Below, piece by piece: positions 4,231 to 28,149 of a DNA stretch of 28,171 nucleotides (the first letter of the stretch is position 1; every line of letters starts with the position of its first letter). Origin of the DNA: a virus; the IMG/VR virus record IMGVR_UViG_3300025769_000634, positions 1 through 28,171 of that record, one strand, 5' to 3'. The notes below the pieces were generated by a model. The model made no database searches. It was not told where the DNA came from and worked only from the letters and a program-made list of their open reading frames with translations. The translations under genes were made by a program, and so were the position numbers.

Positions 4231-5610
4231 TTATTCGAAGTTTCCGAATAATACAAAGTTGTTCGCTCCTTGTACTACCAAACATCTTTCAGATAAGTAG
4301 TGTACATCCATTACATCGTCTCCAGTAGTTGAAGCACCACCTACAGAACCAGTAATCCAAGTCTTCATTCTTCTATCGTCAGCTTCAGAAGCTCTATAAC
4401 GAACGTGCAAGAATGGACGTTTTAGGTTTTTACCTAAGATTTGGTCGTATACTGAAGAAGTACCAGCTGGTACAAGAAGTCCAGTTACGTCAGAAGCGAT
4501 AGCTCCTCTAGTAGCTGCATCATTTAAGTATTTCCAGTCACTTTTGTAGAAGTCATAAGAACCTCTTCTGAATCCAGAGAAACCTAAGTTAAGAGCCATA
4601 TCCTCAGAGTTGTTAAATACTCCAAAAGAAACCCCTCCACTTGTATGAGGATTTAATCCAGCTAACATATCGTCGAAGTTCAAAGAAAGTGTTCTGTTTA
4701 AGAAAAGAACGTTTTCTTCGATAGCTCCTTGAGCGTCTAGCTTCTGTAACATGTTGTCAAAATCAGTTAAGTCGTCAGCAGCAGAAGAACCGTCTAATCC
4801 GTCTTCGAATACGTGACCTCTGGCTGTAACAGCAGCGAATAAACCTTCAGTACCTTTAAGGTCAAAGCTTGTGTTGTCGTTTTTCTCTGCCTCAACCAAA
4901 GACATTTCTAAGTAATCCTCGAAACGGCTTCTTGTCTCTCCTTCAGCTTTAAGATACCATAAGTATCCAGTTTCTCCAGCCTCTCCAGTTACTTCAACCC
5001 ATCCAATTTGAGACGCATCAGAACCGTTGATTCCGTAGTGGTCTTTGATGATAATAGGTCTGTTAGTGAAAGTAGTGAATTTAGGCTCAACAGATTCGCT
5101 CATAGAAGCAGAACCTTTAGCGAATTCTGAACCATAAACAAATAGTTTAATTGCACTCGCTGTTGTTGCAATACCAGCTGCCACACACCCAGTGTCACTA
5201 GTGTAACACCTTACAGTAATACTGCTAGTACTTGGAACTGCGCTTACATAAGCCTTAACAGTGTCAGTTCCATCTGAAATAACAACTGTTTGTCCAACTC
5301 TAATAGCGTGGTTGGTTAAACCTGTAATTGTGTTAGCTTTGTTTGTGTCAGCTCCCATAGTACCTCCACTGTATGATAAGTGCAAACGACCTTGCTCTGA
5401 CCAAATAACTTGGTCTGAAGCCATAGGCATTTCAGCCCCTACCATTCTTAAAAACCCTCCTACAGAGCGGTCTCCATAAATTTCACTTTCCTGTTCGTAT
5501 AGCTCAGGAAGATATTGTTGCGCCCATCCGTTATTTTGAATATCTAAATAATTAGCGGATGTAGCTTGTTTTATAGGGGACACAGCTGTCCCGTTAAAAT
5601 TAATTGCCAT
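4231..5610 (-). CDS. Major capsid protein
   Basis: A 459-residue protein that forms the capsid shell. It follows TerL, portal and an acidic scaffold-like gene, the usual position for a major capsid protein. The C-terminal half carries PFLHVRYRASEADDRRMKTW and ITGSVGG, then LSERCLVVQGANNF, which I recognise from capsid proteins of marine Bacteroidota and crAss-like phages; an HK97-type fold is expected. Residues of about 90-165 (starting near ITGLTNHAIRVGQTVVISDG) look like a small beta-barrel inserted into the shell fold. The leader is A/T-rich without Shine-Dalgarno. Hairpins lie downstream at 4182-4208 and 3390-3407, which may set its dose relative to the following genes. Confidence 0.9.
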   Translation of the reverse strand: MAINFNGTAVSPIKQATSANYLDIQNNGWAQQYLPELYEQESEIYGDRSVGGFLRMVGAEMPMASDQVIWSEQGRLHLSYSGGTMGADTNKANTITGLTNHAIRVGQTVVISDGTDTVKAYVSAVPSTSSITVRCYTSDTGCVAAGIATTASAIKLFVYGSEFAKGSASMSESVEPKFTTFTNRPIIIKDHYGINGSDASQIGWVEVTGEAGETGYLWYLKAEGETRSRFEDYLEMSLVEAEKNDNTSFDLKGTEGLFAAVTARGHVFEDGLDGSSAADDLTDFDNMLQKLDAQGAIEENVLFLNRTLSLNFDDMLAGLNPHTSGGVSFGVFNNSEDMALNLGFSGFRRGSYDFYKSDWKYLNDAATRGAIASDVTGLLVPAGTSSVYDQILGKNLKRPFLHVRYRASEADDRRMKTWITGSVGGASTTGDDVMDVHYLSERCLVVQGANNFVLFGNFE

Positions 5611-6855: not shown

Positions 6856-9273
6856 TTATCTTGGCTCGAACTGCTCTAGTCCGAATCCTCCTAAAGTATC
6901 AAATCCAGCGGACTCAAAATCTTTTGGAATTTTATTGTTTTTTCTTTGGTCTATAAGTTCAGACTGCTGTGATGCTTGAATTTTAGTTCGTTTATCTTTA
7001 CGGTCTTCTTTATACCTATCTCTTTCATTAATTACTTGCATTTCAGCTTGTTTAAGCTGCATGTTTAGCTCAAACTCTCTTTGCATAAGGTCCATTTTGA
7101 TTTGAGCCTCTCTCTCAAGTTTCTGCATTTCAAGCTGTGCTTTTACTTGCTCTATCTGAGCTTCTGTCTGCGCTAAAGCTTGTTGTTTTTGCATGTCTGC
7201 TTCAGCTGACGCTTGAGCCGACTGAGCATTTGCTTGGCTTTGAGCTTGAATGTTTTGCATTTGCGCCTGTCTATCTTCTTGAGCTTTGTTCTTCCTTCTA
7301 AGCTTCAAGAGTTGATTTGCAAGTTTCAAGTTTTTTACTTCTCGTACATCAATAGCGTCTTCCAAATGTATTTGGTCTCTTTGTAAAGCTACTTGTATGT
7401 TTGCTTCAAGGCGTTGTTTTTCCTCTTCATCTGGAGCTAATTCTAAGAATATTCCAAAATCGTGTAAATGAAGATTTTGTATCTCTTTTAATGTTCCTAC
7501 ATTAAGTTTACCTATCCCAGATAAGAACGAAGCTGTAGTGTTTCCAAACTCTAAAACATCTGATATTCTTAATGATATTGACTCTGCTGCTTTTAAAGCC
7601 AAATACAACACGGACTGCACAATGTGTCTTGTAGCTGTATTTGAGTTAGCCGCTGCCATTTTCTGTATACCAACAAGAGCGTCTTTGTCTGGCATTGACC
7701 CATCTCTAGCTTCATTTAGACCAGTTACATCCCTTATCATATTCAAATAATAGTTGTATGAATTAATAAGAGATGATATTTTACCTCCAGCATTCGACGT
7801 CTGAAGTTCTTGAATCGGTACTCTAGAGTGGTTAAACTCTCCGTCCTGGGTCATTGACCTACCAATAACAGAACCTGTCTGGAAGTACATATTAAGTGCC
7901 TCTTGTGGGCTATAGTATGTTCCGTTTCCAAGGTCTATTTCCGCAATACCGTCAGCGTCCAAATAAACCCCATCTGGAACCATTCTAGATAATACTTGTT
8001 GTATTTTAAGGTGTGTAAGCTGAATCATATCAGCAAACGTAGTCATCCTTGAAACAAGAGACTCTATCTGGCCTTTATACATTCTTGGCGCTACAATATT
8101 GTAAGACATCTGAACTTTTGTGGTATCAGACTTAGGTCTTGTCATATTCTCTGCCATTTTCCATTCCAATAACGTATCAAGACCAATTACTTTAGCACCT
8201 GTATATAGTACCTCGATTGACCTTTGAACCTTTTCAAATCTGGCTCTTTTGTCTTTTGGAGGATTGAATGTGTCGTCTTTCTTTATAATTTTATCAGCTC
8301 CAGTAGATGTCTCCTTAACTTTGTATACTTGGTTTTTGAATGTCTTGTATTCAAAATAAAGAACGTATATATGGTTTGTGTCTTCTGCATCAGAGTAAGA
8401 GTAAGACCTATGGTAATTTACAGCGTTTGAGCCTGTACCTTCAATCTTTTCTATATCTTCTGGAGTTAGATTTGGATATTGTTTTTTAAGTTCTGTAACA
8501 CTAACTCTTCTTATTTCTCCTACATAATATAGGTCATCAAAGTACGGTGACTCTGTGTAGGAATAAACTAAATCAGCTGGGTCAACATATTCCAGTTTAA
8601 TTCCTTCCGATGTATTGAATGAGTTTTTGTGAGCTCCAATACCAAGAGTTACTATATCATAAGCTACCCTGTTTTGTAGTAAATCATATTTATTGTGGTC
8701 TAAAACATTAGAGATAGCTTCTTCTGAAGCAACTTCAATAGATTGTTTGTAATCTAATTGCATGTGAAGTTGTAATTCTTCTGTTGTCTCTGGAAGTTCT
8801 TCTTGATTTGTTTTAAACATATTAACTCCGAACTCTTGCTGAACAGCTTGTAATAACTGTTTATTCTGCATGTCCGAAACTAATTTCCCTAAATACTCTG
8901 TTTTTTCCTTTATAGATGCTGGGTCTTGAGAGTAAGCCTTTATTTCGTAAGGTCTGTCATTAATACCGTTAACAACAATGTCAACAAACTTAGGGATAAT
9001 AGCAACTGGCTTCCAGTCTAAATTTAAATAAGACAAATCACCATTAATTGACAACTCATCTTTATACTTTTGTATAGACTGCTCACCACGAGCATATAAT
9101 CTTAATCTATGAAAATTATCTCTGTTAGCGTAATACCTGGTTGCTCCACTATCTCTTCTAAACCATTCGCCCTCAATAGCTCTAGCTACTTCCATTCCAT
9201 ACTGGCTGGATGCTTTCTCTGCGTCACTTACTGCTTGTGAAGGGAATATACCTTTTGGTGGTGTCTTTTGCAT
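6856..9273 (-). CDS. Portal protein
   Basis: An 805-residue protein that starts directly after the TerL stop (TAA followed by ATG, no gap). It would form the dodecameric DNA channel at one capsid vertex. The N-terminal region contains LRLYARGEQSIQKYKDEL and LNLDWKPVAIIPKFVDIVVN, then a long alpha/beta body typical of large portal proteins. The region around 480-540 (NYYLNMIRDVTGLNEARDGS) fits the stem and clip-helix area. Residues 656 to about 785 are a long Gln/Ala/Glu-rich coiled coil, followed by a short tail ending in EQFEPR. The long coiled coil could form a barrel inside the head. The protein is long compared with the 500-600 residues of many portals. Confidence 0.9.
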   Translation of the reverse strand: MQKTPPKGIFPSQAVSDAEKASSQYGMEVARAIEGEWFRRDSGATRYYANRDNFHRLRLYARGEQSIQKYKDELSINGDLSYLNLDWKPVAIIPKFVDIVVNGINDRPYEIKAYSQDPASIKEKTEYLGKLVSDMQNKQLLQAVQQEFGVNMFKTNQEELPETTEELQLHMQLDYKQSIEVASEEAISNVLDHNKYDLLQNRVAYDIVTLGIGAHKNSFNTSEGIKLEYVDPADLVYSYTESPYFDDLYYVGEIRRVSVTELKKQYPNLTPEDIEKIEGTGSNAVNYHRSYSYSDAEDTNHIYVLYFEYKTFKNQVYKVKETSTGADKIIKKDDTFNPPKDKRARFEKVQRSIEVLYTGAKVIGLDTLLEWKMAENMTRPKSDTTKVQMSYNIVAPRMYKGQIESLVSRMTTFADMIQLTHLKIQQVLSRMVPDGVYLDADGIAEIDLGNGTYYSPQEALNMYFQTGSVIGRSMTQDGEFNHSRVPIQELQTSNAGGKISSLINSYNYYLNMIRDVTGLNEARDGSMPDKDALVGIQKMAAANSNTATRHIVQSVLYLALKAAESISLRISDVLEFGNTTASFLSGIGKLNVGTLKEIQNLHLHDFGIFLELAPDEEEKQRLEANIQVALQRDQIHLEDAIDVREVKNLKLANQLLKLRRKNKAQEDRQAQMQNIQAQSQANAQSAQASAEADMQKQQALAQTEAQIEQVKAQLEMQKLEREAQIKMDLMQREFELNMQLKQAEMQVINERDRYKEDRKDKRTKIQASQQSELIDQRKNNKIPKDFESAGFDTLGGFGLEQFEPR

Positions 9274-11484
9274 TTATTCTATTATTTTTGAAAAGGCTCC
9301 TGAGTTATTATATTTCTTGAAACCAAAATCTAATCGTTTTGTTGTTTTCTCCTGTACTGGTTTATATAAGTTTCTGTTACAGGCCATAATCGCTAATCCA
9401 GAGCTAATTGCTGCATCATACTTTGTTCTATTGTTTATATCAAATCCAGCCCAATCCTGTAGTGTTCTGTTAAAGTAAACCGTACCATAATTACCATCTC
9501 CAAGATGACCTACGTGGTTTTCAATATAACTTTCAATAGCTGCTGCGTGAGCTTGCTTTATATCTTCTCCAGAGTTAGGAATACCACCTATCTCTTTTTC
9601 CGATGCTGATAATCGTGTATAGGTTTTGTCTGGTCTATTCATCGAAAACCCACGATACCCTCTTCGTTTAATATAATATAATAATCTTGGCTTGTTGTTC
9701 TCCGCTAATATTGGCATTCCATAAAAAATAAGTGCCATAAGCACGTCTTCAAAAAATATCTCTGCCGTTTGCGGTCTTGCAATATATTCTAGAAAAAAAG
9801 TATTTGATGGAGCTTCATCCATAGAAAACTTAGTTAGTCCGTGCAATGCACCTTTTGAACCTCTCTTATCTACTGTACCAGATATATCGTAACTATCGCA
9901 ACCAAATGCACCTAGATGTTCATTACCTGGCATTTTAACTCCATTTCTTTCTATTACACGGTTTTGTAGATTTATACTTGGTATCCATGACACCTTAAAC
10001 CTACCATTACTGTCAGGCACAAATATAACTCTTGTATCCCTTATTCCGTTCTCCCATTGAAAGTTGCCCTTGTTTATCACATTGGAGTAACCTATACCCT
10101 CGTTGTAGTCTATTTGTTCGTATATCTTAACTAAGTTAAATATACTGTTTTTAGTTTCATCTCTAAAAGCGTGCTGCTCTGTTCTTGGGAACTGACGGTA
10201 AAATTCATTTAATCCGTCTTGGTCATCTTTCAGACCCTCTGCTTCATTTTCCCAATGCTCTATTACTCCAGTATCAATAACCTCTCCCAGCGGTCCTTCA
10301 ACTTCTTGTTCTGGTGTATCGAAGAGAGGTAGTCCAAAAGAGTCAATGTATCCCTCGTAGTTCCATTCCATAGGTATGAACAAACTATATAATCCACTGC
10401 GAGTTTGTCCATTGCGGTTTCGTTTTGTAACGTCTGAATCTTCATAAAGCTTTTTAAAGTTATTACCACCTTTGTCAAGTGCGTTGGATGTTGAACCCAT
10501 CATACACTTTCCTGTTATTCTACTACCTAGTCTTAGAGTTGTTTTTGTTACCCTCCAGTTATTTAATATATTGTCTGGCTTTAACCATTTACCAGCTTCA
10601 TCATGAACTAGTAACGCAAGTTTTTCACCGTCATACGAGTTGTCCCCTGTGTTCTTCCAGTCGATTGTTGTATCAAGACCTTCGAGAACTTCTCTCTCCT
10701 TGTTTTGTATTGATTTTCTTGTAAGCTTCGAGGCTGGAACCCTATATGCGAGTTCTGTTTTTGGTCTGTCCATACCGTCTTGTATCGGTTTGAAGAAGAA
10801 CGGGTAGTTAACCGATATTGGTACAACCTTATCTGTGAACATCTTTTTAGCATCAGACCCAGATTTGGACAATATCCCAAATCGTGAATCAGATGAAATC
10901 GTGGCAAGGTTGACAGTTTCAGCCGAGGACATAAACGAGAATCCAGATCGACGATTTTTAAGGTAACACATTCCATAAGACCTTGAGTCGGCTTTGCAAG
11001 CCTCCCAGAAAATGAAAAATAATCTATTTGCTTCACGGAAGTCTGGTTTGCCAACATCAATCTTGGTCCACTGCAAGTACATGTAATGACTGCCAGTAAT
11101 GTAAGTATAAGTACCATTATTGGAAAACCAATGGCCTTTTTCGCGTCTTTCAAATTCTTCATTAATGTAATCCTCCCATTTTTCTTTGAACTCTTCTGGA
11201 TATTCCTTCCAATCAAAGATACTTTTTATTTGCTTCAGCTCTCTTGGATACTCTTCAGCAACCCACTTGTTTGCGCCTTTAGGAACTTTTACTGGAGATT
11301 TAGGTAGAGCTATTCTTAGATTTTGTATTTCGTATATCTCCCCTATTTGTCCTGTCTTGCTTATAACTACAATGTCATGTTCTTTATCGTAGCCATACTT
11401 CCAAGCTTTCTTTTTATTGAGCCTAGTTAATGTATTTATTCTTATAGGCTCAACAACTTTATATAATGTTTGTTGGTAAGCCAT
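9274..11484 (-). CDS. terL: Terminase large subunit (TerL), packaging ATPase/nuclease
   Basis: A 736-residue packaging motor protein. The ATPase half has a deviant Walker A around residues 175-186 (LKNRRSGFSFMS), a Walker B at 289-296 (LALLVHDE, with D295 and E296), and a coupling motif GSTSN at 330-334. The C-terminal RNase H-like nuclease half has candidate metal ligands D530 (in GAFGCDSYD), E595 (in PILAENN) and D690 (in RTKYDAAISSG). It cuts and translocates phage DNA with the portal encoded next door. Its ATG overlaps the previous stop by one base. The upstream sequence AAGGAGGT, 7 nt from the ATG, is the only strong Shine-Dalgarno-like site seen, but it also encodes the end of the previous gene. 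Confidence 0.93.
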   Translation of the reverse strand: MAYQQTLYKVVEPIRINTLTRLNKKKAWKYGYDKEHDIVVISKTGQIGEIYEIQNLRIALPKSPVKVPKGANKWVAEEYPRELKQIKSIFDWKEYPEEFKEKWEDYINEEFERREKGHWFSNNGTYTYITGSHYMYLQWTKIDVGKPDFREANRLFFIFWEACKADSRSYGMCYLKNRRSGFSFMSSAETVNLATISSDSRFGILSKSGSDAKKMFTDKVVPISVNYPFFFKPIQDGMDRPKTELAYRVPASKLTRKSIQNKEREVLEGLDTTIDWKNTGDNSYDGEKLALLVHDEAGKWLKPDNILNNWRVTKTTLRLGSRITGKCMMGSTSNALDKGGNNFKKLYEDSDVTKRNRNGQTRSGLYSLFIPMEWNYEGYIDSFGLPLFDTPEQEVEGPLGEVIDTGVIEHWENEAEGLKDDQDGLNEFYRQFPRTEQHAFRDETKNSIFNLVKIYEQIDYNEGIGYSNVINKGNFQWENGIRDTRVIFVPDSNGRFKVSWIPSINLQNRVIERNGVKMPGNEHLGAFGCDSYDISGTVDKRGSKGALHGLTKFSMDEAPSNTFFLEYIARPQTAEIFFEDVLMALIFYGMPILAENNKPRLLYYIKRRGYRGFSMNRPDKTYTRLSASEKEIGGIPNSGEDIKQAHAAAIESYIENHVGHLGDGNYGTVYFNRTLQDWAGFDINNRTKYDAAISSGLAIMACNRNLYKPVQEKTTKRLDFGFKKYNNSGAFSKIIE

Positions 11485-11762
11485 TATTTAGACCTCCTTT
11501 CCGCAAACCCTTTAAATACTTTTTTGTCTTCCGTATCCTTAGGCTTGTTTTCAAGGATGTTTTTTTCTTCCTCTATTCTATTGAGTATTTCAAAAGCATC
11601 AAAAATTGCAAGCTTCTTTGTTGCCGCTGCATTCTTTAATCTATCAGCAGATACATCATCCTCTGTATTGGTTATAATTTTTTCTTCAGCTACTTTGATT
11701 AGTTCTTCTACCGCCTTATAACCAGCTTGGACTATACTCTTTTTTGTCTCCTTTATGTTCAT
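11484..11762 (-). CDS. Candidate small terminase subunit
   Basis: A 92-residue, mostly helical protein with SADRLKNAAATKKLAIFDAF followed by EILNRIEEEKNILE. It lies directly upstream of terL, coupled to it by a TAATG overlap, the usual place for TerS. No clear helix-turn-helix is visible, so DNA recognition is not shown. The chosen start overlaps the end of the upstream tandem GroES-like gene by 47 bases; a later start would remove part of the first helix. The sequence pattern is familiar from uncultured marine phages. The TerS role is inferred from size, helical content and position. Confidence 0.6.
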   Translation of the reverse strand: MNIKETKKSIVQAGYKAVEELIKVAEEKIITNTEDDVSADRLKNAAATKKLAIFDAFEILNRIEEEKNILENKPKDTEDKKVFKGFAERRSK

Positions 11763-12315
11763 ATTTTATACACATCGAACTCGCTTTCACCCTATACAGT
11801 ATCTCATTGTCTATCTCAAACTCAAACTCACTGTAGGGCGTGAACCCGACTAAATCATTTAATTTTATACCATTTTTTTGAAGAGAATTGTCGATATATT
11901 TTACAACACCTATGTTTCTCTCTTTTTTAGCCAAGCTCAAGTTATCTGAATTTTGTATTGGTTTTACAAAACAATAACCCTCTAATGGCTTCCAAGAGTC
12001 TTTTCTCCTGTACATATATATTTGGTCTTCTTCTGCAAAAAACTGATTTTCATCAAAATAAGACCTGCTATTTTTTTCCTTACCACTTATGTCGTAAAAC
12101 CTTCTAAATACATTGTGATGTAAAAGAACATCATCTCCTTTTTTTATTCCAGTAGTACCATTTATGGGTGTTTCAACAACCTCACCTATTCTATTTACAA
12201 AATTATGATTTGACATTTCTGTATTTAAAATAAGGTTTACGTCTTGTATTTTTTTAGTGTTTTGGTATCTTAGGTCGTATTTTGGTTTTACAATAAAGCT
12301 GTATAAACTTCTCAT
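11716..12315 (-). CDS. Tandem GroES-like protein (two fused co-chaperonin folds)
   Basis: A 199-residue protein that reads as two GroES-type beta-barrels in a row. Repeat 1 (about 4-103) has FIVKPK, then IGEVVETP, then GIKKGDDVLLHHNVF, then FAEEDQIYMYRR. Repeat 2 (about 112-186) has GYCFVKPI, then NIGVVKYIDN, then GIKLNDLVGFTPYSEFEFEI, then ILYRVKASSMCIKYE. Each copy follows the GroES order of N-terminal strand, G-x-V strand, KxGDxV turn and closing strand. The mobile-loop regions (about 15-40 and 121-133) lack a clear GG-hydrophobic motif. It could be a second co-chaperonin for the phage GroEL, or a structural protein reusing the fold. It is coupled to the upstream gene by TAATG. Confidence 0.65.
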   Translation of the reverse strand: MRSLYSFIVKPKYDLRYQNTKKIQDVNLILNTEMSNHNFVNRIGEVVETPINGTTGIKKGDDVLLHHNVFRRFYDISGKEKNSRSYFDENQFFAEEDQIYMYRRKDSWKPLEGYCFVKPIQNSDNLSLAKKERNIGVVKYIDNSLQKNGIKLNDLVGFTPYSEFEFEIDNEILYRVKASSMCIKYEHKGDKKEYSPSWL

Positions 12316-12534: not shown

Positions 12535-12984
12535 TTATTTTCCTTTTATCTGAGCGTATTTTTCAACTCCTCTTGATCCAAAATACGCAACATAAACTGT
12601 AACAAGCAGAGTTTCAATGAGTTTTACCCATTGGTCATCTACAGAAAAAACGCCTATAGAGTCAAGCACAATGTACACACTCATTATAAACGTTAAATAC
12701 AATACAATTACAGGTCTTGCAATCTTAGTTATTTTGTTGTCAGATTTAGCATCAGCCTCCCATCTCCTAGTCACTGCCTCTGCCTCTTCTTCATCCATCT
12801 TAATAAGGTGCATCGCCATTGCTTTTTGTTGCTCTGACATTTCCTTATCATCTGTAACTAAGTTTTTTACAAGCCCTAAAAGACCTTTATCTGGGATTGA
12901 ATCTCCAAGAGCGTCTATAATAACAGAACCACTCTTAGAGAGAAAGCCACCGACTTTTGTGTCTTTAAACTTCTTTTTTGGCAT
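12535..12984 (-). CDS. Holin of the 3TM / gene-transfer-agent type
   Basis: A 149-residue protein with an N-terminal amphipathic part (GGFLSKSGSVIIDALGDSI), a charged helix around residues 50-85 (MDEEEAEAVTRRWEADAKSD), and two clear membrane spans at about 91-111 (PVIVLYLTFIMSVYIVLDSI) and 119-137 (WVKLIETLLVTVYVAYFG). The order charged helix, W-x-A-D, then IARP followed by hydrophobic spans matches the 3TM holin family first described in gene transfer agents. It would permeabilise the inner membrane at lysis. No endolysin is present in this window, so the partner must lie elsewhere. It is coupled by TAATG to the 36-residue gene upstream. Confidence 0.82.
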   Translation of the reverse strand: MPKKKFKDTKVGGFLSKSGSVIIDALGDSIPDKGLLGLVKNLVTDDKEMSEQQKAMAMHLIKMDEEEAEAVTRRWEADAKSDNKITKIARPVIVLYLTFIMSVYIVLDSIGVFSVDDQWVKLIETLLVTVYVAYFGSRGVEKYAQIKGK

Positions 12985-13094
12985 TATTTTTTTCTTGTTC
13001 TTTTCATGGCCTTGAAGTCGGCTCCTGTGATTTTATTTTTTGGAGTTGCCATTCTAGCAATAGACCTTTGCTTTGGTGTAAGTTTCTTTTTCAT
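12984..13094 (-). CDS. Very small basic protein (36 residues)
   Basis: An ATG at 13094 opens a 36-codon frame reading MKKKLTPKQRSIARMATPKN then KITGADFKAMKRTRKK, ending with TAA at 12984-12986. Both ends have one-base TAATG overlaps with neighbours, which is strong support for a real gene despite the length. About one third of the residues are Lys or Arg. The core KLTPKQ...KNKITGADF is a pattern I recall from many phage genomes, always small and without assigned function. Binding to DNA or to acidic capsid proteins is possible from the charge. Confidence 0.78.
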   Translation of the reverse strand: MKKKLTPKQRSIARMATPKNKITGADFKAMKRTRKK

Positions 13095-13393
13095 TAGTAT
13101 TTGCCTTGTCTTGATTTAGGGCTAGATTTAGTTGAACCACCTTTTCCAGCCCAAAGGTTTTTACAGGCCCAATATCTAGCTGTTAATTTACTCTTAGCTG
13201 TGCTACATTTATGTCTAGCTCTGAAGCTTTTTCTTGCTGCTGCTGAATAATTGTGTCCGTATCCTGTAGCCCCGAAGTGAATAATTTTTTCTCTTCCTCC
13301 CTCACAACCTTTAACCACTTTTTTCTTCCCAGCCTTTGGGCTTTTTCGTGGCTTGTTGCAAGGCATTTTTGATTTGTCTAGTCGTTTGGCCAT
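13094..13393 (-). CDS. Basic Gly/Lys-rich conserved phage protein
   Basis: A 99-residue, strongly basic protein. The N-terminal 35 residues are Lys-rich and probably disordered. The core (about 36-85) contains IIHFGATGYGHNYSAAARKS and FRARHKCSTAKSKLTARYWA, and the C-terminus is Gly/Ser/Lys-rich. The core is a widely seen motif in marine phages and giant-virus-like genomes, as I recall, without firm function. Cysteines at several positions (for example in GCEGG, HKCST and WACKN) could bind metal or form disulfides. The charge suggests binding to packaged DNA or to an acidic virion surface. Coupled on both sides by TAATG. Confidence 0.75.
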   Translation of the reverse strand: MAKRLDKSKMPCNKPRKSPKAGKKKVVKGCEGGREKIIHFGATGYGHNYSAAARKSFRARHKCSTAKSKLTARYWACKNLWAGKGGSTKSSPKSRQGKY

Positions 13394-13528: not shown

Positions 13529-13969
13529 TTATCTATCTTTATCTTTTATCATATCATCAGTAGCTTTGTTAAAAACTTTATCTGTGTATGATTTGTTTTT
13601 GTAAAACACACTCACCTTTGATGTTGGTAAGTCTTCGTATCCTAAAAGTATCTTATACATCCTTGTTATAAGAGACCTTGTCTTAAATGAAACTTTGAAT
13701 ATACTGTATCCTCCTGTTTGTTTAGACTTGTTTCTCCAAGCATCAATCCATCCTTCTTTACGAAGTCTATTCCATCTGTGTTTGTCCCAAGAATATATAT
13801 ACTCTCCGTTTTTAAAATCTTTTAAAGTAAACCTATCTAGACAATCTAAGTATATAAGAAGTTCAAGGTCGCCATCTGTGAGCCCGTTGGTTTTACAGGC
13901 CCACTTGCGAACCAGTCTGTAGTATTTAAAAAGTTTTATTTCTCTTAAATCACTAGCATCTATCCTCAT
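13529..13969 (-). CDS. Winged-helix-like DNA-binding protein (MarR-type fold suspected)
   Basis: A 146-residue protein. Residues of about 10-110 have the order of a winged helix: helices at LFKYYRLVRKWACKT and LTDGDLELLIYLD, a recognition-helix-like segment RWNRLRKEGWIDAWR, and a wing with GGYSIFKVSFKTRSLITRMY. This resembles MarR-like regulators in general form. The C-terminal 30 residues are charged and probably flexible. Its ATG overlaps the groES stop by four bases (ATGA), so it is made together with the chaperonins. It may regulate late phage genes or act in packaging. The fold call is by eye. Confidence 0.6.
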   Translation of the reverse strand: MRIDASDLREIKLFKYYRLVRKWACKTNGLTDGDLELLIYLDCLDRFTLKDFKNGEYIYSWDKHRWNRLRKEGWIDAWRNKSKQTGGYSIFKVSFKTRSLITRMYKILLGYEDLPTSKVSVFYKNKSYTDKVFNKATDDMIKDKDR

Positions 13970-14223
13970 CCTATCAAAACTATGTCCCTTTGTCTGATAA
14001 CACGATATTGGTTATTATCAAACAAAATAGAATGCCCAGCGTGACGGTCATAGTAGATAGTATCAGATTCATTGATTCCTTGAGTTAGATTACCACAACT
14101 TATTATTACACCTTTTAGGTATCTTATATCTTCTGTGGTTGTATCTGTTACAATAAAACCGCCAACGTTTTTAGGCTCCTCTTTAACTTCCTGTATTACA
14201 ACATAATCATTAATTGCTTGCAT
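13966..14223 (-). CDS. groES: GroES-type co-chaperonin
   Basis: An 85-residue homologue of GroES (97 residues in E. coli), the lid of the GroEL folding chamber. The mobile loop is visible at about 14-28, with GGFIV (21-25) matching the GG-hydrophobic tripeptide that docks on the GroEL apical domain. The part corresponding to the E. coli roof hairpin is cut to a short turn (GNLTQGINESD), so the dome roof is probably open, as known for phage T4 Gp31. The gene starts inside the last 14 bases of groEL, so the two are translated together. By analogy with Gp31 it likely helps fold the capsid protein. Confidence 0.88.
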   Translation of the reverse strand: MQAINDYVVIQEVKEEPKNVGGFIVTDTTTEDIRYLKGVIISCGNLTQGINESDTIYYDRHAGHSILFDNNQYRVIRQRDIVLIG

Positions 14224-15775
14224 TCTCTATTCTTTTATTAGAAATTACACAATCTGCTGATATTATTGTAAGGGCAACACTAACTGCATTTTTCAAAGCT
14301 GTCTTTGTTACAAGAGCTGGGTCAATAATTCCAGACTCAATCATATCGACAACTTCCCCTGTTATTACATTTATCCCTTTTCCTTCTTTTTCTAAATCAA
14401 CGTTGGGATACATTCCAGCGTTTTCAAGTATCATCTCAAAAGGTCTTCTGATTGCTTTTAGTAATATACCTTGAGTTTCATTCTCTGGCCTTAATTTACT
14501 TGAAGCGTTCAAAAGAGCTATTCCTCCCCCTGGAACTATACCTTCTTGAAGTGCCGCTTTAACAGCATATATCGCATCTTCAACCCTGTCTTTTTTCTCT
14601 TTTAACTCAACTTGACTGTGAGCTCCTACTTTTATAACAGCAACAGAGCCGTTAAGCATTGAGAGTCTTTGTTCAAGTTTCTTTTTTAAAAACGGATTAT
14701 CCTCGTTTTTAATTTTATCTTCTACGGATTTTATTCTTTCTTCAAGCTCTGGTATATCTTCAGAAACCTTTAAGACAGTATTTTTATCATCTGTAGTGGA
14801 TTTTAATACCTCTCCGAGTATAGAAGCATCCATAAGTTCTAAATCATCTCCAAGAGATTCGTCTATTAGTTTTGCTCCTGTAAGCAAACAAAGGTCTTGT
14901 AAAGTGTCCATCTTAGTTGGACCAAAACCTGGCAAATCAACAACGTTTACCTTTATGTTTCCTTTCACTTTATTCATTAGTAGCGCAGACATTGGTTGCT
15001 GTTCCACCTCTCCAACAATAAGCAAAGACCTTTTTTCTTTAATAACATACTCTAATATTCCTTGTATCTTTCGTATACTCTCTATTGGAGTTTTACATAC
15101 AAGAACAAGAGGATTATCAAGTTCTGCTTTGTCTTTTTCTTCGTTTGTAGCTAAGTGTTGTGCTTTTAGTCCAGAATCAAAATGAACTCCTTTTTCAAAC
15201 TCAAGGTGTGTTTTTTCAGAGTCAGACTCTTCCATTGTTACAACACCGTTTTTACCAACAAGGTTATAAGCCTCGGCTATTAAATCTCCAAGCTCTTTAT
15301 CATTGTTTGTTGATATAGTAGCTACGTGTGATAGGTTATCTCCTTTTACATCTTTCTTTATTTTGTCGATGTACATAATAACCTTTTGTTGCATTAGTAC
15401 TACTGCATCTTTTAGTTCTCTTGGATTTACATCCGTAGCGGCTTTTAATTCTTTTAGAAGTGCGTTTGCAAGTACAGTTGCTGTTGTTGTTCCATCTCCA
15501 GCTTGTCTTACTGTGTTTCTTGCAGCTTCTTTTATTAATGTAGCACCCATGTTTTCTACAGGGTCGATAAGTATTACGCTTTCAGCTACAGTTACTCCGT
15601 CTTTTGTTATAACGGGTTTGCCAAGTGCATCTTCATAGATTACACATCGTCCAGAAGCACCGAGAGTGGAGCTGACCGCATTGGCCAGCTTCTCGACTCC
15701 CTTCATTATTTTACTACTTGCTTCCTTACCGAAAGTCAAGTCTTTTACAATCTCACTAGGGTTGTTGTATTCCAT
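14210..15775 (-). CDS. groEL: GroEL-type chaperonin (Cpn60)
   Basis: A 521-residue ATP-driven folding chamber subunit. ATP-site residues are conserved: ITKDG with D59 (E. coli D52), GDGTTT at 93-98 with D94 (D87), RVED with D400 (D398), and PGGG at 415-418. The apical domain (about 195-380) has PGFG and LQDLCLLTG, but binding-face positions differ from E. coli: Y199, Y203, F204 and L234 become L203, H207, L208 and Q238. At the ring interface R452 and E461 become E447 and Y456. The C-terminal GGM tail is missing. The start lies behind an A/T-only leader, and the gene precedes groES, opposite to the bacterial order. Likely clients are the phage's own virion proteins. Confidence 0.96.
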   Translation of the reverse strand: MEYNNPSEIVKDLTFGKEASSKIMKGVEKLANAVSSTLGASGRCVIYEDALGKPVITKDGVTVAESVILIDPVENMGATLIKEAARNTVRQAGDGTTTATVLANALLKELKAATDVNPRELKDAVVLMQQKVIMYIDKIKKDVKGDNLSHVATISTNNDKELGDLIAEAYNLVGKNGVVTMEESDSEKTHLEFEKGVHFDSGLKAQHLATNEEKDKAELDNPLVLVCKTPIESIRKIQGILEYVIKEKRSLLIVGEVEQQPMSALLMNKVKGNIKVNVVDLPGFGPTKMDTLQDLCLLTGAKLIDESLGDDLELMDASILGEVLKSTTDDKNTVLKVSEDIPELEERIKSVEDKIKNEDNPFLKKKLEQRLSMLNGSVAVIKVGAHSQVELKEKKDRVEDAIYAVKAALQEGIVPGGGIALLNASSKLRPENETQGILLKAIRRPFEMILENAGMYPNVDLEKEGKGINVITGEVVDMIESGIIDPALVTKTALKNAVSVALTIISADCVISNKRIENASN

Positions 15776-21243: not shown

Positions 21244-21804
21244 TTATGGTTGGTTTGGGTCGTAATCTCTACCAGCGGCTTGATAATATTCATAATCTCT
21301 AGGGCTGTTTGTAACGCCCGCACTACCAGAACTAATTCTTATTTTTATGGCCCTTGGAGCTCCATCAATAGCATTCCCAGCTATAGTGACCTGGAAAGTA
21401 TCCCCATCAGAAACACCTGTGTTCCCGCCATTTGGAAAACTAGCCCATGAGGTTCCGTCTCCAAAGTTAACAAAAGAACAACTACCCACAACTGAATTTG
21501 GGTCTGGAGAAACGTTAAAGGTAATCGTAAAGGTTTCGCCTATTGCTGCCCTTGGAGAAGATGATGAAGATGCTGGTATTCCAGAAAGCCCTATACTGTA
21601 CGTTACAGCAACAGCATCATGGTTATAGTTTTGAAACTCGCTCATATTATCAGTTCCAGCTACATTGTATGTTACGTCAAATCCATCTGAGTTTGCATAC
21701 TGAAAAGCCTCTGATAAAGACTGAATATTTTGCACATCACCATCATCTATAGCAACTTTTATGTCATCTTTTAAAGAAAGATTGTTAGTTGGTAAATTAG
21801 GCAT
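21244..21804 (-). CDS. Beta-sandwich appendage protein
   Basis: A 186-residue protein. Residues 1 to about 60 contain helical segments, including SLKDDIKVAIDDGDVQNIQS. Residues of about 67-170 form a probable Ig-like domain with GETFTITFNVSPDPN, VNFGDGTSWASFPNGG, DGDTFQVTIAGNAIDGAPRA and IKIRISSGSAG; VNFGDGT resembles PKD-domain turns. Its start overlaps the end of the S74 fibre gene by eight bases, so the two are translated together and may interact. Likely a virion surface or fibre-adaptor protein. Confidence 0.65.
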   Translation of the reverse strand: MPNLPTNNLSLKDDIKVAIDDGDVQNIQSLSEAFQYANSDGFDVTYNVAGTDNMSEFQNYNHDAVAVTYSIGLSGIPASSSSSPRAAIGETFTITFNVSPDPNSVVGSCSFVNFGDGTSWASFPNGGNTGVSDGDTFQVTIAGNAIDGAPRAIKIRISSGSAGVTNSPRDYEYYQAAGRDYDPNQP

Positions 21805-24800
21805 TTTCTAACTGTTTTATTCTATCTTCAAGCTCTACAATTTTTGCAACAAGAAGGTCGATGTAAGAAACACTCTTATACCCGAGCTCTGTCTCTTTAA
21901 TAAACTCTGGATGATGTTTTTCTAGCTCTTGGGCTACAACACCGAACCTTGTTTGTTTTTTATCTTTAAAGTTATATTCTTTAAAATCTACATTTATTCT
22001 TCTTGGCTTTAGATCTATTATATTTTCTTTTAACCTTTCATCTGAAGTTAATTGAAAGTCTGGGGCTATAAGAGTCGCATCAAACTCTTGATTTGTTGCA
22101 GTATCTTTGTTAGCAAAACTACTTGGGTTCACCCCGTTTAAGTTATCAGTGAAAACATTAAGGAATCTTAGTCCACTAGTTCCTATGTTTATAGCTGAAT
22201 CTGTACTTGGTGTAATATTTCCACTTAAAGAAATCGTACTTAAAGTTGAGTTGTTTGTAACTGTAAGGGAGTTTGCTGTAACCGCATCTTGAAAGTTACA
22301 GGTAGAGCTAACACTTAAAGTCCCTGTAATTGTAGTATTCCCAGAAGAAAGTGTCCCAGATGTAGATACATTACCGTCAGCATCTACAGTAAAATTATCT
22401 GTATCTACAGCAATACCTCCATTAAGATTAGCTACTCCTGTAGCTCTTAAAGTCCCAGATACTGATGTGTTACCGTCTACGTTAAATTTATAGTTATTAT
22501 CAATAGTTCCTATACCTACATTGTCACTCGAATCTATTAAAACACCGCCAGAGGTTGAACTTGCATTAGACAAGAATAAATTGCCACTAGCGGACATTCC
22601 TAAATACCCATAAACTACAGTGTTGTCATTATTAGAGCCGTCACTACCTATACGGATATGACCAGAGCTACCAAAAGTGTCGAACGTAGCTATCAAGTTA
22701 TTTCCAGTAGTATCATTTCTTCTGGCAAGAAGCATGCCGTTTGCACTTTCTGTTCCTACAAGATTTATTTCTGTACTAGAATCATTGTCTTGTGCGAGAA
22801 CTTCACCAATTCCAGGAACTCCGATTTCTTCATCAAGAGCATCGTTAAGGGTTTCTAGCGTTATAACTTTATTGCTTGAAGCGTTGCTGGAAAGGTTTCG
22901 TGCCTCAGTCTCTGTTGCTAGCTGAACCACCCCTTCTGAAGTTGTAGTGGCAACTGGAGTAGATATTGTTAAAGCTGGGTAACTGTTTCCTCCAACAGAA
23001 AAACCTTCACTTTCATAAGAAAAAGTAGTATTGTCGCCTTGTATAAGATAAAAATAACCTGTAGAAGCTGTTCTAGTCACTGCTGAACCATCCAAAGATA
23101 CACCTATTAATGTTTCTGAATTACCCAAATCACTCTTTGTAGCAAGCCCGTTTGGGCTTGTTGTGTCTGCGGCTATTATTGGATTTGCTGGGTCATCATC
23201 ATCTTGTGTGATATTAATATACGCTCCAGCTTTCAAAACGGTTTGAGAACTTAAATCAGTCTCGGTAGGATTATTAATAACCAATCTAATTTGTTCTGAA
23301 TTTGAATCCTTTTCAAACTTTATACTCTCAACTACATTGTTTTTAATAGTACTAAGCTCACCTGAGGTTAAAGAGACTTGGTTCGGTCCCAGGGTAATCT
23401 GGTCTCCTGTAATTATAATGCTGTTAGCAAAAGTTGAAGTACTCGAAGTAAAAATATTACCTCCGCTAGAATCTTGTAAATCTCCTCCTCTTAAATCACC
23501 TTTAAACCATTCGCTCTGTCTATTTAATATTTTAGTTCCGTCATTTTTAAAAAGGTCGGTTTTTGCTTTCCCCTCTATATAAGAAGCTGAACCAGAAACT
23601 GTTAATGTTCCAGTCATTGTATCTCCAGTAACCTCTACATATCTAGCGTCATTAGTGTTATTCAATTCATCTATATCTACAGATATTGAATAATAGTCGT
23701 TATCGGTATCAGCAGTTAAATCTATATACTTAGATCCATATATTCTATTTGAAAGCGTTCTGTCGTCATCTGTTGTTTCGCCTTTTAACTTTATGTCAAT
23801 ACTGTCTGCATTTACTAATGCACTATTTAGATCAGTGAAAGTGACTTCAGTACCATCTCCTGTAAAATACTCAATGTTTCTAACCCAACTTCCGTATGCA
23901 GATTTGAAATTGTTTACATCTACTTTACTAATTGAAGTTTGATTAGCACCTCTATCAAAAACTATAGTTGAAGATTGAGCTAAATCCAAATCCCCTCCAA
24001 CATCAAGGTCGGTTGTAATATCAAGACCTCTTTGAAACACAGGGCCGTTAGAATTGTCTCCTATACTAAGCTCTAAGGCTCCGTCTTGATGATACAGGTC
24101 TCCTCTAAACCAAGAATCTTTTTGATAATTTGACCCGTTTGTAGTTCCGTTATTTAAAAGCCTAGTTGATAGGTTATCTGCATATATATCACCAGCAACT
24201 CCATAGGGCCCAGAAAACTGAAGCATTCCTGTCATTGTATCTCCATCAATGTTCACATAAAGTAAATCTAGAGCACTAGTGTTTACATCTAAAGTTATTG
24301 GGTCGTTTGAATCTGGTCCATCGGTTTCTCCATCGCCTTCTGTAAATGATATGTCTATATATGTGCCACCTGTTATGTTATTTGAGGTAGTAACATAATT
24401 ACTGGACTCATTGTCTTTAACCAGCCTTAACTGAATATCTCCTGTTTGTGTATTAGTATCGTAGTTTACAAGGTCGTAATACAATGTGGTTATTACATTT
24501 GAATCCCAAGTAGATATTTTACTTGCATCAATATATTCTTCTTGAGAAACTCCGTTCCCGTCTTCAATATGTCTTCCAAAATAAATCTGTGAAGTTACTC
24601 CAAGGTCAATATCAAAATTTGTTGTAATAACATCTTGGCCTAATCCGCTATCAAAAACAGGTGTTCCAATATTTAAATCCGTTGTAAAAGCAACTTCGCT
24701 TGAATCGAAAATAGTGGTTCCAGCGGTTAATACTTTAGAAAGTCCACTCCCAGACTGTGTGGCTGTTATAATATCCCCAGAAATGTTACCTTGTAAAATA

Positions 24801-26008
24801 GGGGTTGCACTACTACCACTAGCAGTATATAAAGCCAGAACAGAGCCGTCTGGATTAAAGACTTGCCCTTTTAAATTACCCTGGAAAGTCCCAACAAACT
24901 CTGGGGTACTACCCGCAAAGCCTGTATATGTCGATGCTGAAATTGTTACTGTGTCGCTCTCTCCATCTGAAGACTCGTTAAAAAGAACAACATTTGTTGT
25001 TGTACCTGCGTTAACTCTGTTAGCAACAACACCTTCAGTATCTGAAATAATCAAATCTCCTTCTACATCTCCTTCTAGATTTCCGATAAACCTGGCGTCT
25101 GTTATGTTACCACCGTTTTGTGTTTTTACATTTCCTGTAACAACAAGCATGGCGTAGTCAGACCCATAATCTGTATACCAATCTGTTGTGTCGCTAGGTG
25201 CAAGAGAGACCCCTCCATTACCAATAAGGGTCCATCCTCTTGTGATTTCATCACCACCAATATCAAAGGTAACTTCTGAGAAATCAAAAAATGAAACTGG
25301 CAAGCTCCCAATCTCCACAAGACCATATCCGTCTGAATTGTCTTTTAATATAATTTTATCTGTAGTACCTATAACGATTTCCGAAGAATGGTCTGTTAGG
25401 TTTGAAAGACCGTCAATATCATCTAATATTTCCAGTGCTTTTTGTACATGATTGTCATTATTATCACCCAATGCAGATAAGTTGCCTGTAAAATTTGAGT
25501 TTGCTGTTACAACTGTAATTGTACTTGCTGCTTTTTTGAAATTAGATAAGCTTAACCCAATGTCGTCTTGATTACTAACAGTAAAAGTAACTTGAGCCGT
25601 AGAATCATTAATATTAACTCCTGTTAGAAAATCATTATTATCTGTATTTGTTGTTGGGGCCCACTGAGAGTTAGCATTGTCCCATGCCAAAACTTGCCCA
25701 TCTGTTGGTGCTGTCGATGCTACATTATTAATATCAGCAAGATTATACACAAACCCCGTTATATCTACACCATCAGTAAGGCCATTTAAAGTCAGTGTTA
25801 AAGTGCCTTCAGATAACGAACCTGAGGTTACATAATAATTTGTGTCAGTTACACCCTCGATTAAAATAGATTCACCGTTTTGTTGGTTTAAACTAATAGT
25901 CTTGTTTGTGTCCCCAGACACAGTAGTTGATTTAATACTTCTACTGTAAGCCGTGTCCCAAGTTCTTTTAGTAAAACCTTTTACACTATCAGCTTTTATT
26001 CTAGCCAT
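21797..26008 (-). CDS. Giant tail fibre/spike with C-terminal S74 intramolecular chaperone
   Basis: A 1403-residue fibre protein, the largest gene in the window. The N-terminus (1-90) is a probable attachment domain, and 100-118 carries TDGQVLAWDNANSQWAPT. The shaft has repeated modules: IDGDTMTGMLQFSG (587-600) and VTGDTMTGTLTVSG (793-806), each followed by a segment with DSWFRGDL or SEWFKGDL. The C-terminal 82 residues are a Peptidase_S74 chaperone domain beginning SDERLKEN, with the self-cleavage Ser1322 and partner Lys1327, FGVVAQELEK, and a final coiled coil (VAKIVELEDRIKQLENA). In this family the domain drives trimer folding and then cuts itself off before Ser1322. A 5-nt gap links it to the gene upstream. 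Confidence 0.92.
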   Translation of the reverse strand: MARIKADSVKGFTKRTWDTAYSRSIKSTTVSGDTNKTISLNQQNGESILIEGVTDTNYYVTSGSLSEGTLTLTLNGLTDGVDITGFVYNLADINNVASTAPTDGQVLAWDNANSQWAPTTNTDNNDFLTGVNINDSTAQVTFTVSNQDDIGLSLSNFKKAASTITVVTANSNFTGNLSALGDNNDNHVQKALEILDDIDGLSNLTDHSSEIVIGTTDKIILKDNSDGYGLVEIGSLPVSFFDFSEVTFDIGGDEITRGWTLIGNGGVSLAPSDTTDWYTDYGSDYAMLVVTGNVKTQNGGNITDARFIGNLEGDVEGDLIISDTEGVVANRVNAGTTTNVVLFNESSDGESDTVTISASTYTGFAGSTPEFVGTFQGNLKGQVFNPDGSVLALYTASGSSATPILQGNISGDIITATQSGSGLSKVLTAGTTIFDSSEVAFTTDLNIGTPVFDSGLGQDVITTNFDIDLGVTSQIYFGRHIEDGNGVSQEEYIDASKISTWDSNVITTLYYDLVNYDTNTQTGDIQLRLVKDNESSNYVTTSNNITGGTYIDISFTEGDGETDGPDSNDPITLDVNTSALDLLYVNIDGDTMTGMLQFSGPYGVAGDIYADNLSTRLLNNGTTNGSNYQKDSWFRGDLYHQDGALELSIGDNSNGPVFQRGLDITTDLDVGGDLDLAQSSTIVFDRGANQTSISKVDVNNFKSAYGSWVRNIEYFTGDGTEVTFTDLNSALVNADSIDIKLKGETTDDDRTLSNRIYGSKYIDLTADTDNDYYSISVDIDELNNTNDARYVEVTGDTMTGTLTVSGSASYIEGKAKTDLFKNDGTKILNRQSEWFKGDLRGGDLQDSSGGNIFTSSTSTFANSIIITGDQITLGPNQVSLTSGELSTIKNNVVESIKFEKDSNSEQIRLVINNPTETDLSSQTVLKAGAYINITQDDDDPANPIIAADTTSPNGLATKSDLGNSETLIGVSLDGSAVTRTASTGYFYLIQGDNTTFSYESEGFSVGGNSYPALTISTPVATTTSEGVVQLATETEARNLSSNASSNKVITLETLNDALDEEIGVPGIGEVLAQDNDSSTEINLVGTESANGMLLARRNDTTGNNLIATFDTFGSSGHIRIGSDGSNNDNTVVYGYLGMSASGNLFLSNASSTSGGVLIDSSDNVGIGTIDNNYKFNVDGNTSVSGTLRATGVANLNGGIAVDTDNFTVDADGNVSTSGTLSSGNTTITGTLSVSSTCNFQDAVTANSLTVTNNSTLSTISLSGNITPSTDSAINIGTSGLRFLNVFTDNLNGVNPSSFANKDTATNQEFDATLIAPDFQLTSDERLKENIIDLKPRRINVDFKEYNFKDKKQTRFGVVAQELEKHHPEFIKETELGYKSVSYIDLLVAKIVELEDRIKQLENA

Positions 26009-26688: not shown

Positions 26689-27162
26689 ATGAACTACAAG
26701 ATTTACTGCGATATGGACGGAGTCCTCGCAAACTTCAACTACCAATTCGAGCGGGCTACCCGCCAAACTCCTAAGGAGTTCCTCAAGTCCAATAGCATGG
26801 AGGACTTCTGGAAAGTAACTGACGAGAACCTTAGCTTCTGGAGTAGAATGCCGATGATGCGTAACGCTCACATACTTTGGAACTACCTCGCTGACAAGAA
26901 TGTAACACTCTTGACCACTCCATCTCCCAACGAGATTTCAAGAATTGGAAAGCGTATATGGAAGTCAAGGTATCTCAAAGGCAAACCTCAGATTATCTTC
27001 TCTGACTCAAAGCATGACTTTGCAAACTCGAGGACTATCCTAATCGATGACTTCAAGGTCAACCTCAACAAGTTCCGAAAGGCTGGCGGTATCGGTATCC
27101 GATGCTACAACGGGAACGCTACCGAAGTCGTAGAGCAACTCAAAGCGATACTCAATGACTAG
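26689..27162 (+). CDS. HAD-family 5'(3')-deoxyribonucleotidase-like phosphatase
   Basis: A 157-residue HAD-fold hydrolase that probably removes phosphate from nucleotides or related substrates. Motif I is DMDGV with nucleophile D8 and acid/base D10. Motif II is LLTTPSP with Thr76/77. Lysines in ISRIGKRIWKSRYL supply motif III, and motif IV is ILIDDFKVN with D120 and D121 for Mg2+. The small cap and length fit the NT5C-like group found in phages, where it may act in dNTP recycling. The DNA is clearly more GC-rich than the leftward block (30 of 60 bases G/C at 26701-26760). It lies 20 nt after repeat copy 2. Exact substrate is unknown. Confidence 0.82.
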   Translation: MNYKIYCDMDGVLANFNYQFERATRQTPKEFLKSNSMEDFWKVTDENLSFWSRMPMMRNAHILWNYLADKNVTLLTTPSPNEISRIGKRIWKSRYLKGKPQIIFSDSKHDFANSRTILIDDFKVNLNKFRKAGGIGIRCYNGNATEVVEQLKAILND

Positions 27163-27648: not shown

Positions 27649-28149
27649 ATGTATACTGTTATTGACTTGGAGACCACAGGACTCAACACAAAAACCTGTC
27701 GAATTATTGAGATTGCCATCTTTCACGTTGATGGCGACAAGGTAGAGAAAAAGCTTTCTACACTTGTCAACCCTAAGGTCTTCATCTCACCACTAATCCA
27801 ACGCATCACGGGTATCAAGTACTACGATGCAATGAAAGCTCCAACGTTTAAGGAGATAGCTAACGATGTAAAGAAGTTGTTCAGAGGCAAAGTGTTTGTG
27901 GCTCACAACTCTAAGTATGACTACGAGGTCCTACGCAACGAGTTCTACCGCAATGGAATACCTTTCAGAAGAAAGCACTTGTGCACTCTCGAACTCTCTC
28001 GGGTAGCCTTTCCTAACCTTGGCTCTTACAAGTTGGGTAACCTTTGCGAGCAGTTAGGCATTGACCTAACCAACGCTCACAGAGCAGAAGACGACGCCCA
28101 CGCTACGGCTGTGTTACTACAACGCACCTTAGCGGAGGCTCCCTTCTAG
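27649..28149 (+). CDS. DnaQ-like 3'-5' exonuclease (DEDDh family)
   Basis: A 166-residue exonuclease of the RNase T/DnaQ fold. Exo I is DLETT with D6 and E8, Exo II is HNSKYDYEVL with D91, and Exo III is HRAEDDA with H144 and D149, so all four metal and catalytic residues of the DEDDh type are present. Segments LCTLELSRVAFP and SYKLGNLCEQLGI closely resemble those I recall from Bacteroidota exonucleases, which supports the host call. It could proofread a phage polymerase in trans, or degrade host DNA or RNA early in infection. A hairpin follows 5 nt after the stop. Confidence 0.9.
   Translation: MYTVIDLETTGLNTKTCRIIEIAIFHVDGDKVEKKLSTLVNPKVFISPLIQRITGIKYYDAMKAPTFKEIANDVKKLFRGKVFVAHNSKYDYEVLRNEFYRNGIPFRRKHLCTLELSRVAFPNLGSYKLGNLCEQLGIDLTNAHRAEDDAHATAVLLQRTLAEAPF

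Follow-up and report, generated by a model that had tools for sequence, protein, structure and literature searches.

A phage groEL-groES pair in reversed gene order, with a probable second, tandem co-chaperonin encoded beside the terminase gene

The virus record studied here (the window, i.e. the whole stretch of 28,171 bases) carries what we regard, with reasonable though not high confidence, as a phage-dedicated group I chaperonin system with two types of lid, most likely serving the late virion proteins of the phage itself. GroEL and a single-domain GroES would probably be made from one late message, a tandem GroES-like protein would probably act as a second lid, on the ring of either phage or host GroEL, and the clients would be late virion proteins. 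This reading draws on sequence and its comparison, that is, on the genes, their order and overlaps, the ATP site and the apical changes of GroEL, selection, the position on the phage side of the trees and the synteny of the tandem gene; the composition of the ring and its function we infer. The features concerned are the following.

groEL, 14210..15775, minus strand: group I chaperonin of 521 aa (PF00118 and phrog_5725)
groES, 13966..14223, minus strand: single-domain co-chaperonin of 85 aa (PF00166 and phrog_3188)
groEL/groES overlap, 14210..14223, minus strand: 14 bases
Protein of unknown function, 13529..13969, minus strand: 146 aa, weak match to phrog_17028, starting 4 bases inside groES
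Holin (3TM), 12535..12984, minus strand: PF11351 and phrog_3427
Tandem two-domain GroES-like (Cpn20-like) protein, 11716..12315, minus strand: 199 aa, phrog_13932 'co-chaperonin GroES'
Terminase large subunit, 9274..11484, minus strand: phrog_6681, about 0.2 kb downstream of the tandem gene
Portal protein, 6856..9273, minus strand: phrog_6547
Virion structural protein, probably the major capsid protein, 4231..5610, minus strand: 459 aa, phrog_13704

Both members of the pair are identified by profile matches. GroEL scores 187.6 bits against the Pfam profile PF00118 (cut-off 34.3), over positions 1-489 of 490, i.e. the full length of the Cpn60 domain, and 460 bits against the GroEL family phrog_5725; GroES scores 44.4 bits against PF00166 (cut-off 21.1; positions 3-90 of 93 of the Cpn10 domain), with a second match to the GroES family phrog_3188. 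In the order of transcription on the minus strand, groEL comes first and groES begins in its last 14 bases, exactly as the earlier note described (14223-14210+1 = 14); this groES start is backed by 80/80 related loci, where overlaps were counted from the homologous start. Since the neighbours are fibre-like genes, a holin, terminase, portal and the probable major capsid protein, the pair sits amid virion and lysis genes. The 459-aa protein would be the capsid protein and is a candidate client of the chaperonin. The 146-aa protein has a homologue downstream of groES in 79 of the 80 loci, close by in 46; in Elemovirus, MW202828 and Panino the homologue is encoded on the opposite strand. Other genes of the window include those for a 99-aa basic protein (13094-13393, minus strand), which matches phrog_7595 and part of phrog_220 (minor head protein and DNA pilot), and for a 1403-aa fibre-like protein (21797-26008, minus strand) that has a Peptidase_S74 (chaperone of endosialidase) domain at its end. 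There is a strand switch near 26.5 kb, and the plus-strand genes at 26689-27162 and 27649-28149 encode a 5'-3' deoxyribonucleotidase-like protein and a DnaQ-like exonuclease.

A search of viral contigs with GroEL yielded at least 586 confirmed relatives, of which the best 80 were kept. All 80 have groEL followed by an overlapping groES, the overlap being of 14 bases in 41 loci, 17 in 26, 4 in 10 and 1 in 3, and the order persists among relatives down to about 63% identity. Isolated Flavobacterium, Maribacter and Manatee Spring phages show it too, with varying spacing: the overlap is 1 base in Elemovirus and 44 bases as annotated in MW202828, where the Cpn10 match proper begins just past groEL, and in Maribacter phage Panino the two genes are separated by a gap. 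Viral-type contigs binned into metagenome-assembled genomes (MAGs) of unrelated bacteria and one archaeon have the same order as well. Among phages, the bacterial order, ES then EL, is found in immuto phage and DAC22, and Callevirus has GroES, a small ORF, then GroEL. In 61 Bacteroidota genomes, by contrast, groES lies just upstream of 62/62 groEL genes and downstream of none. The EL-ES order is therefore not due to chance (80/80 viral contigs, the viral contigs in MAGs and Elemovirus, MW202828 and Panino, against 0/62 in Bacteroidota), and this survey of viral and host genomes, which the earlier note had proposed, bears out its claim that the order is reversed relative to bacteria. Its view that such a pair is uncommon needs correction: at least 586 confirmed viral relatives make a large marine lineage, isolated Elemovirus phages carry an annotated EL-ES pair, and GroEL was already reported in related marine Bacteroidetes phages (Nishimura 2017, PMC5332604).

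What the overlap does is another matter. With the groES start lying inside the end of groEL, ribosomes finishing groEL could restart on groES; the kind of overlap fits translational coupling, as had been suggested, the coupling itself being something we infer. A different view, to which we give appreciable if lesser credence, is that overlap and order have no function: compact packing would have placed groES after groEL once, and the arrangement would then have been inherited. Overlap sizes of 1, 4, 14 and 17 bases, in two frames, would fit such an origin, as would the 4-base overlap of the next gene with groES and the absence of any overlap in Panino. However, the order has been kept over deep divergence and in phages where the surroundings of the pair are different, which argues against its being without function.

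The sequence of GroEL fits an active ring that may have co-evolved with its own lid, given a kept ATP site and altered apical residues. The ATP-site residues T30-G32, D52, G86-T91, D398, G414-G415 and D495 are all present, those for ATP binding and hydrolysis (D52, D87, D398 and GDGTTT) are conserved, and a proline-to-alanine change at position 33 is the only one among the ATP-site residues examined. The apical residues that contact GroES or substrate are altered (Y199L, Y203H, L234Q, V263L and V264M), as expected if the phage GroEL evolved with its own lid. The inter-ring contacts are mostly not kept (E434, R452 and E461 are among those missing, and the region is shortened), so that the oligomer may differ from that of GroEL, and the C-terminus ends without a GGM tail. 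The assignment of residues to particular contacts follows the established GroEL literature. As for GroES, its mobile loop VGGFIVT (GG-FIV motif, with the hydrophobic tripeptide) is kept and aligns with the loop of solved Cpn10s, while the roof hairpin shows a gap of about 7 residues in the alignment with Thermus Cpn10; its roof region may be shortened, as is that of T4 gp31. The dN/dS values against relatives are 0.07-0.11 for GroEL, 0.10-0.15 for GroES (one pair being saturated) and 0.09-0.16 for the tandem protein; by this measure (0.07-0.16 overall), purifying selection acts on all three chaperonin genes.

The most interesting part, in our opinion, is the tandem lid, which lies outside the coordinates covered by the earlier note. 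This second co-chaperonin-like gene, 1.7 kb downstream of the pair and beside the terminase gene, had gone unmentioned there. An AlphaFold2 model of its product, built from 46 sequences of the window family, has a pLDDT of 81, and its best match in the PDB, over residues 1-186 and with a Z of 10.2, is 7ekq_R, a plastid Cpn20 co-chaperonin subunit to which it is 16% identical. When the N-terminal domain is modelled alone, ranks 1-16 are all co-chaperonins (Z 8.5 to GroES), and dehydrogenase domains, which have a GroES-like fold, come below; the C-terminal domain of the model also matches GroES. By predicted fold, then, the protein consists of two Cpn10/GroES domains head to tail. At the sequence level, the tandem family had no meaningful match in the PDB, and a comparison of its profile with that of the single GroES gave no significant match (prob 2.3%), so that the assignment of the fold rests on prediction and on Cpn10 matches of the C-terminal half in relatives: in Callevirus and Pachyviridae this half exceeds the PF00166 cut-off.

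The position of the tandem gene next to terminase is shared by several phage families. In the contigs examined, whenever both genes are present, some 220-235 bases separate it from the terminase gene downstream, one wider gap apart, and in Callevirus, Baltivirus and Bacelvirus it is found at the corresponding position. Among 16 window-like records longer than 42 kb, 15 carry it along with the small GroES, a combination also seen in isolated phages. Among ten contigs found via the tandem gene, seven show GroEL, the remaining three being records of 36-42 kb that may be fragments. The Pachyviridae phi18:3, phi19:3, phi13:2 and phi46:3 have the tandem and the single GroES and gave no GroEL match; in Tenacibaculum phage Gundel_1, neither GroEL nor GroES was found by Pfam search. 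Both lids thus appear to persist in phages where GroEL was not detected. The four Pachyviridae indicate that lids and ring are separable, so that host GroEL can presumably be served by the lids as well. In these phages it presumably is, as it is by T4 gp31.

One could also imagine that the tandem protein is a GroES fold recruited for another task, such as head assembly or packaging, and that the 85-aa GroES is the only one to serve GroEL. We consider this less likely, though it accounts for several features. The conserved neighbours of the tandem gene are terminase and portal, not groEL, and its separation from groEL counts against our favoured reading; domain 1 has a strongly conserved HHNxFRR motif that is missing from the Cpn10 alignments examined here; domain 2 has no obvious hydrophobic mobile-loop motif; and the profile comparison with the single GroES failed to reach significance. 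Nevertheless, a low-confidence loop of domain 1 carries a conserved (E)LILNT motif resembling the GroES loop, the sixteen first structural matches of this domain are co-chaperonins, the C-terminal domain is recognized by PF00166 in the two phage groups named above, and in phi40:1 the tandem protein is not marked as a virion protein by MS/MS, while some of its near neighbours are. A second lid remains our preferred reading of this protein.

The origin of the pair was addressed with trees of both proteins, as the earlier note had advised, and neither gene falls inside host Bacteroidota. The window GroEL groups with viral contigs, separate from the cellular clade; a second tree, in which long branches are less numerous, supports the phage group at 100/99, and the tree of GroES, a short protein, gives a similar phage/cellular split (99/97). 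That a host groESL operon was simply captured and its order later inverted is very improbable: host capture does occur, immuto phage and DAC22 having the ES-EL order and branching with or next to cellular sequences, but both trees place the window clade apart from the cellular one, a union of its GroEL with Bacteroidota is rejected by the AU test (p = 0.0126, the long phage branches limiting this test), and no chromosomal GroEL found in the genome scan comes closer than 39% identity. A second AU test, joining the phages with one Flavobacteriaceae sequence, was post hoc and has been set aside. Host Bacteroidota groESL operons are defined by having groES first and by branching within Bacteroidota, and the window departs from them on both counts. 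This agrees with the earlier proposal that the pair is not a simple or recent capture of a Bacteroidota operon, all 62 of the host operons being ES-EL.

Some of the GroEL matches required a decision. Those in MAGs (Maricaulis, Rickettsiales, Euryarchaeota and others) we did not accept as host genes, as they branch inside the phage clade and have the EL-ES order; the host-type groEL of four such genomes, included in the tree, falls on the cellular side. The presence of phage EL-ES contigs in MAGs labelled Maricaulis, Alphaproteobacteria, Rickettsiales, Euryarchaeota and Aliivibrio probably reflects misbinning. Salmonella, Acinetobacter, Enterococcus and Listeria records among the phage GroEL matches were excluded as phage evidence; the Acinetobacter record resembles a chromosomal contig. 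In the GroES tree the single-domain GroES of phi18:3, encoded at 1609-1863 after an RNase H gene and about 10 kb from the tandem gene, is placed close to the cellular sequences, so the single lids may derive from more than one source. Phages with a related terminase are known from Flavobacterium, Cellulophaga, Maribacter and Tenacibaculum hosts, which makes a member of the Bacteroidota the likely host of the window phage.

Several known systems share parts of this arrangement. Elemovirus, MW202828 and Panino have a full-size GroEL followed by a single-domain GroES, plus a tandem protein of about 200 aa, whose gene is upstream of terminase in MW202828 and Elemovirus as in the window; however, their EL-ES pair stands among other genes, and the Elemovirus GroEL is only about 37% identical to that of the window. 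For Panino, GroEL and GroES homologues have been mentioned (PMC11590407). Callevirus phi38:1 and phi40:1 (Pervagoviridae) also combine GroEL, a single GroES and a tandem protein directly upstream of terminase, and differ in the order of the first two genes; cpn10 is a core gene of Pervagoviridae (PMC8776804), and mass spectrometry found the GroEL of phi38:1 in infected cells as well as in free virions (PMC13288928). In phi18:3 and its relatives, both lids are present with the tandem gene upstream of terminase, and what differs is that GroEL was not found. The chaperonin of Pseudomonas phage EL (gp146) is a phage GroEL homologue with altered inter-ring contacts, as in the window, and does not interact with E. 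coli GroES (PMC7185714); the window phage brings its own lids. T4 gp31 is a phage co-chaperonin too, but is single-domain, works on host GroEL and is a weaker structural match to the tandem protein (Z 6.8-7.5).

The best structural match is the plastid system, where a chain of two Cpn10 domains (Cpn20) likewise has a single-domain partner (Cpn10). The phage protein differs in its low identity and in a second domain without a clear mobile loop, and we found no evidence that one descends from the other. Plastid Cpn10 and tandem Cpn20 form lids thought to be seven-fold hetero-oligomers (PMC5780408), and a phage with both kinds of subunit suggests the same solution. In the open-access literature, no title or abstract dealt with a phage tandem lid, and nothing was found on the EL-ES gene order; tandem co-chaperonins are described, in the literature we found, only from plastids and apicoplasts. 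We found no earlier account of the EL-ES order as a lineage-wide feature, nor of the tandem architecture in phages, which is not proof of novelty.

By analogy with plastids, a mixed lid of seven domains could be formed by three tandem subunits and one single-domain GroES (3x2+1), an arrangement that we put forward as doubtful but worth considering. If it exists, the phage-encoded ring, and perhaps host GroEL too, would be capped asymmetrically, and the phage would have an independently evolved Cpn10/Cpn20 system outside plastids. Isolated phages with the same genes exist (Elemovirus, Callevirus and Baltivirus), and the system is therefore testable. That two lids are kept, sometimes without GroEL, raises the question of how two-domain lids fit a seven-fold ring, and a lineage so widespread that of why phages carry their own folding machine.
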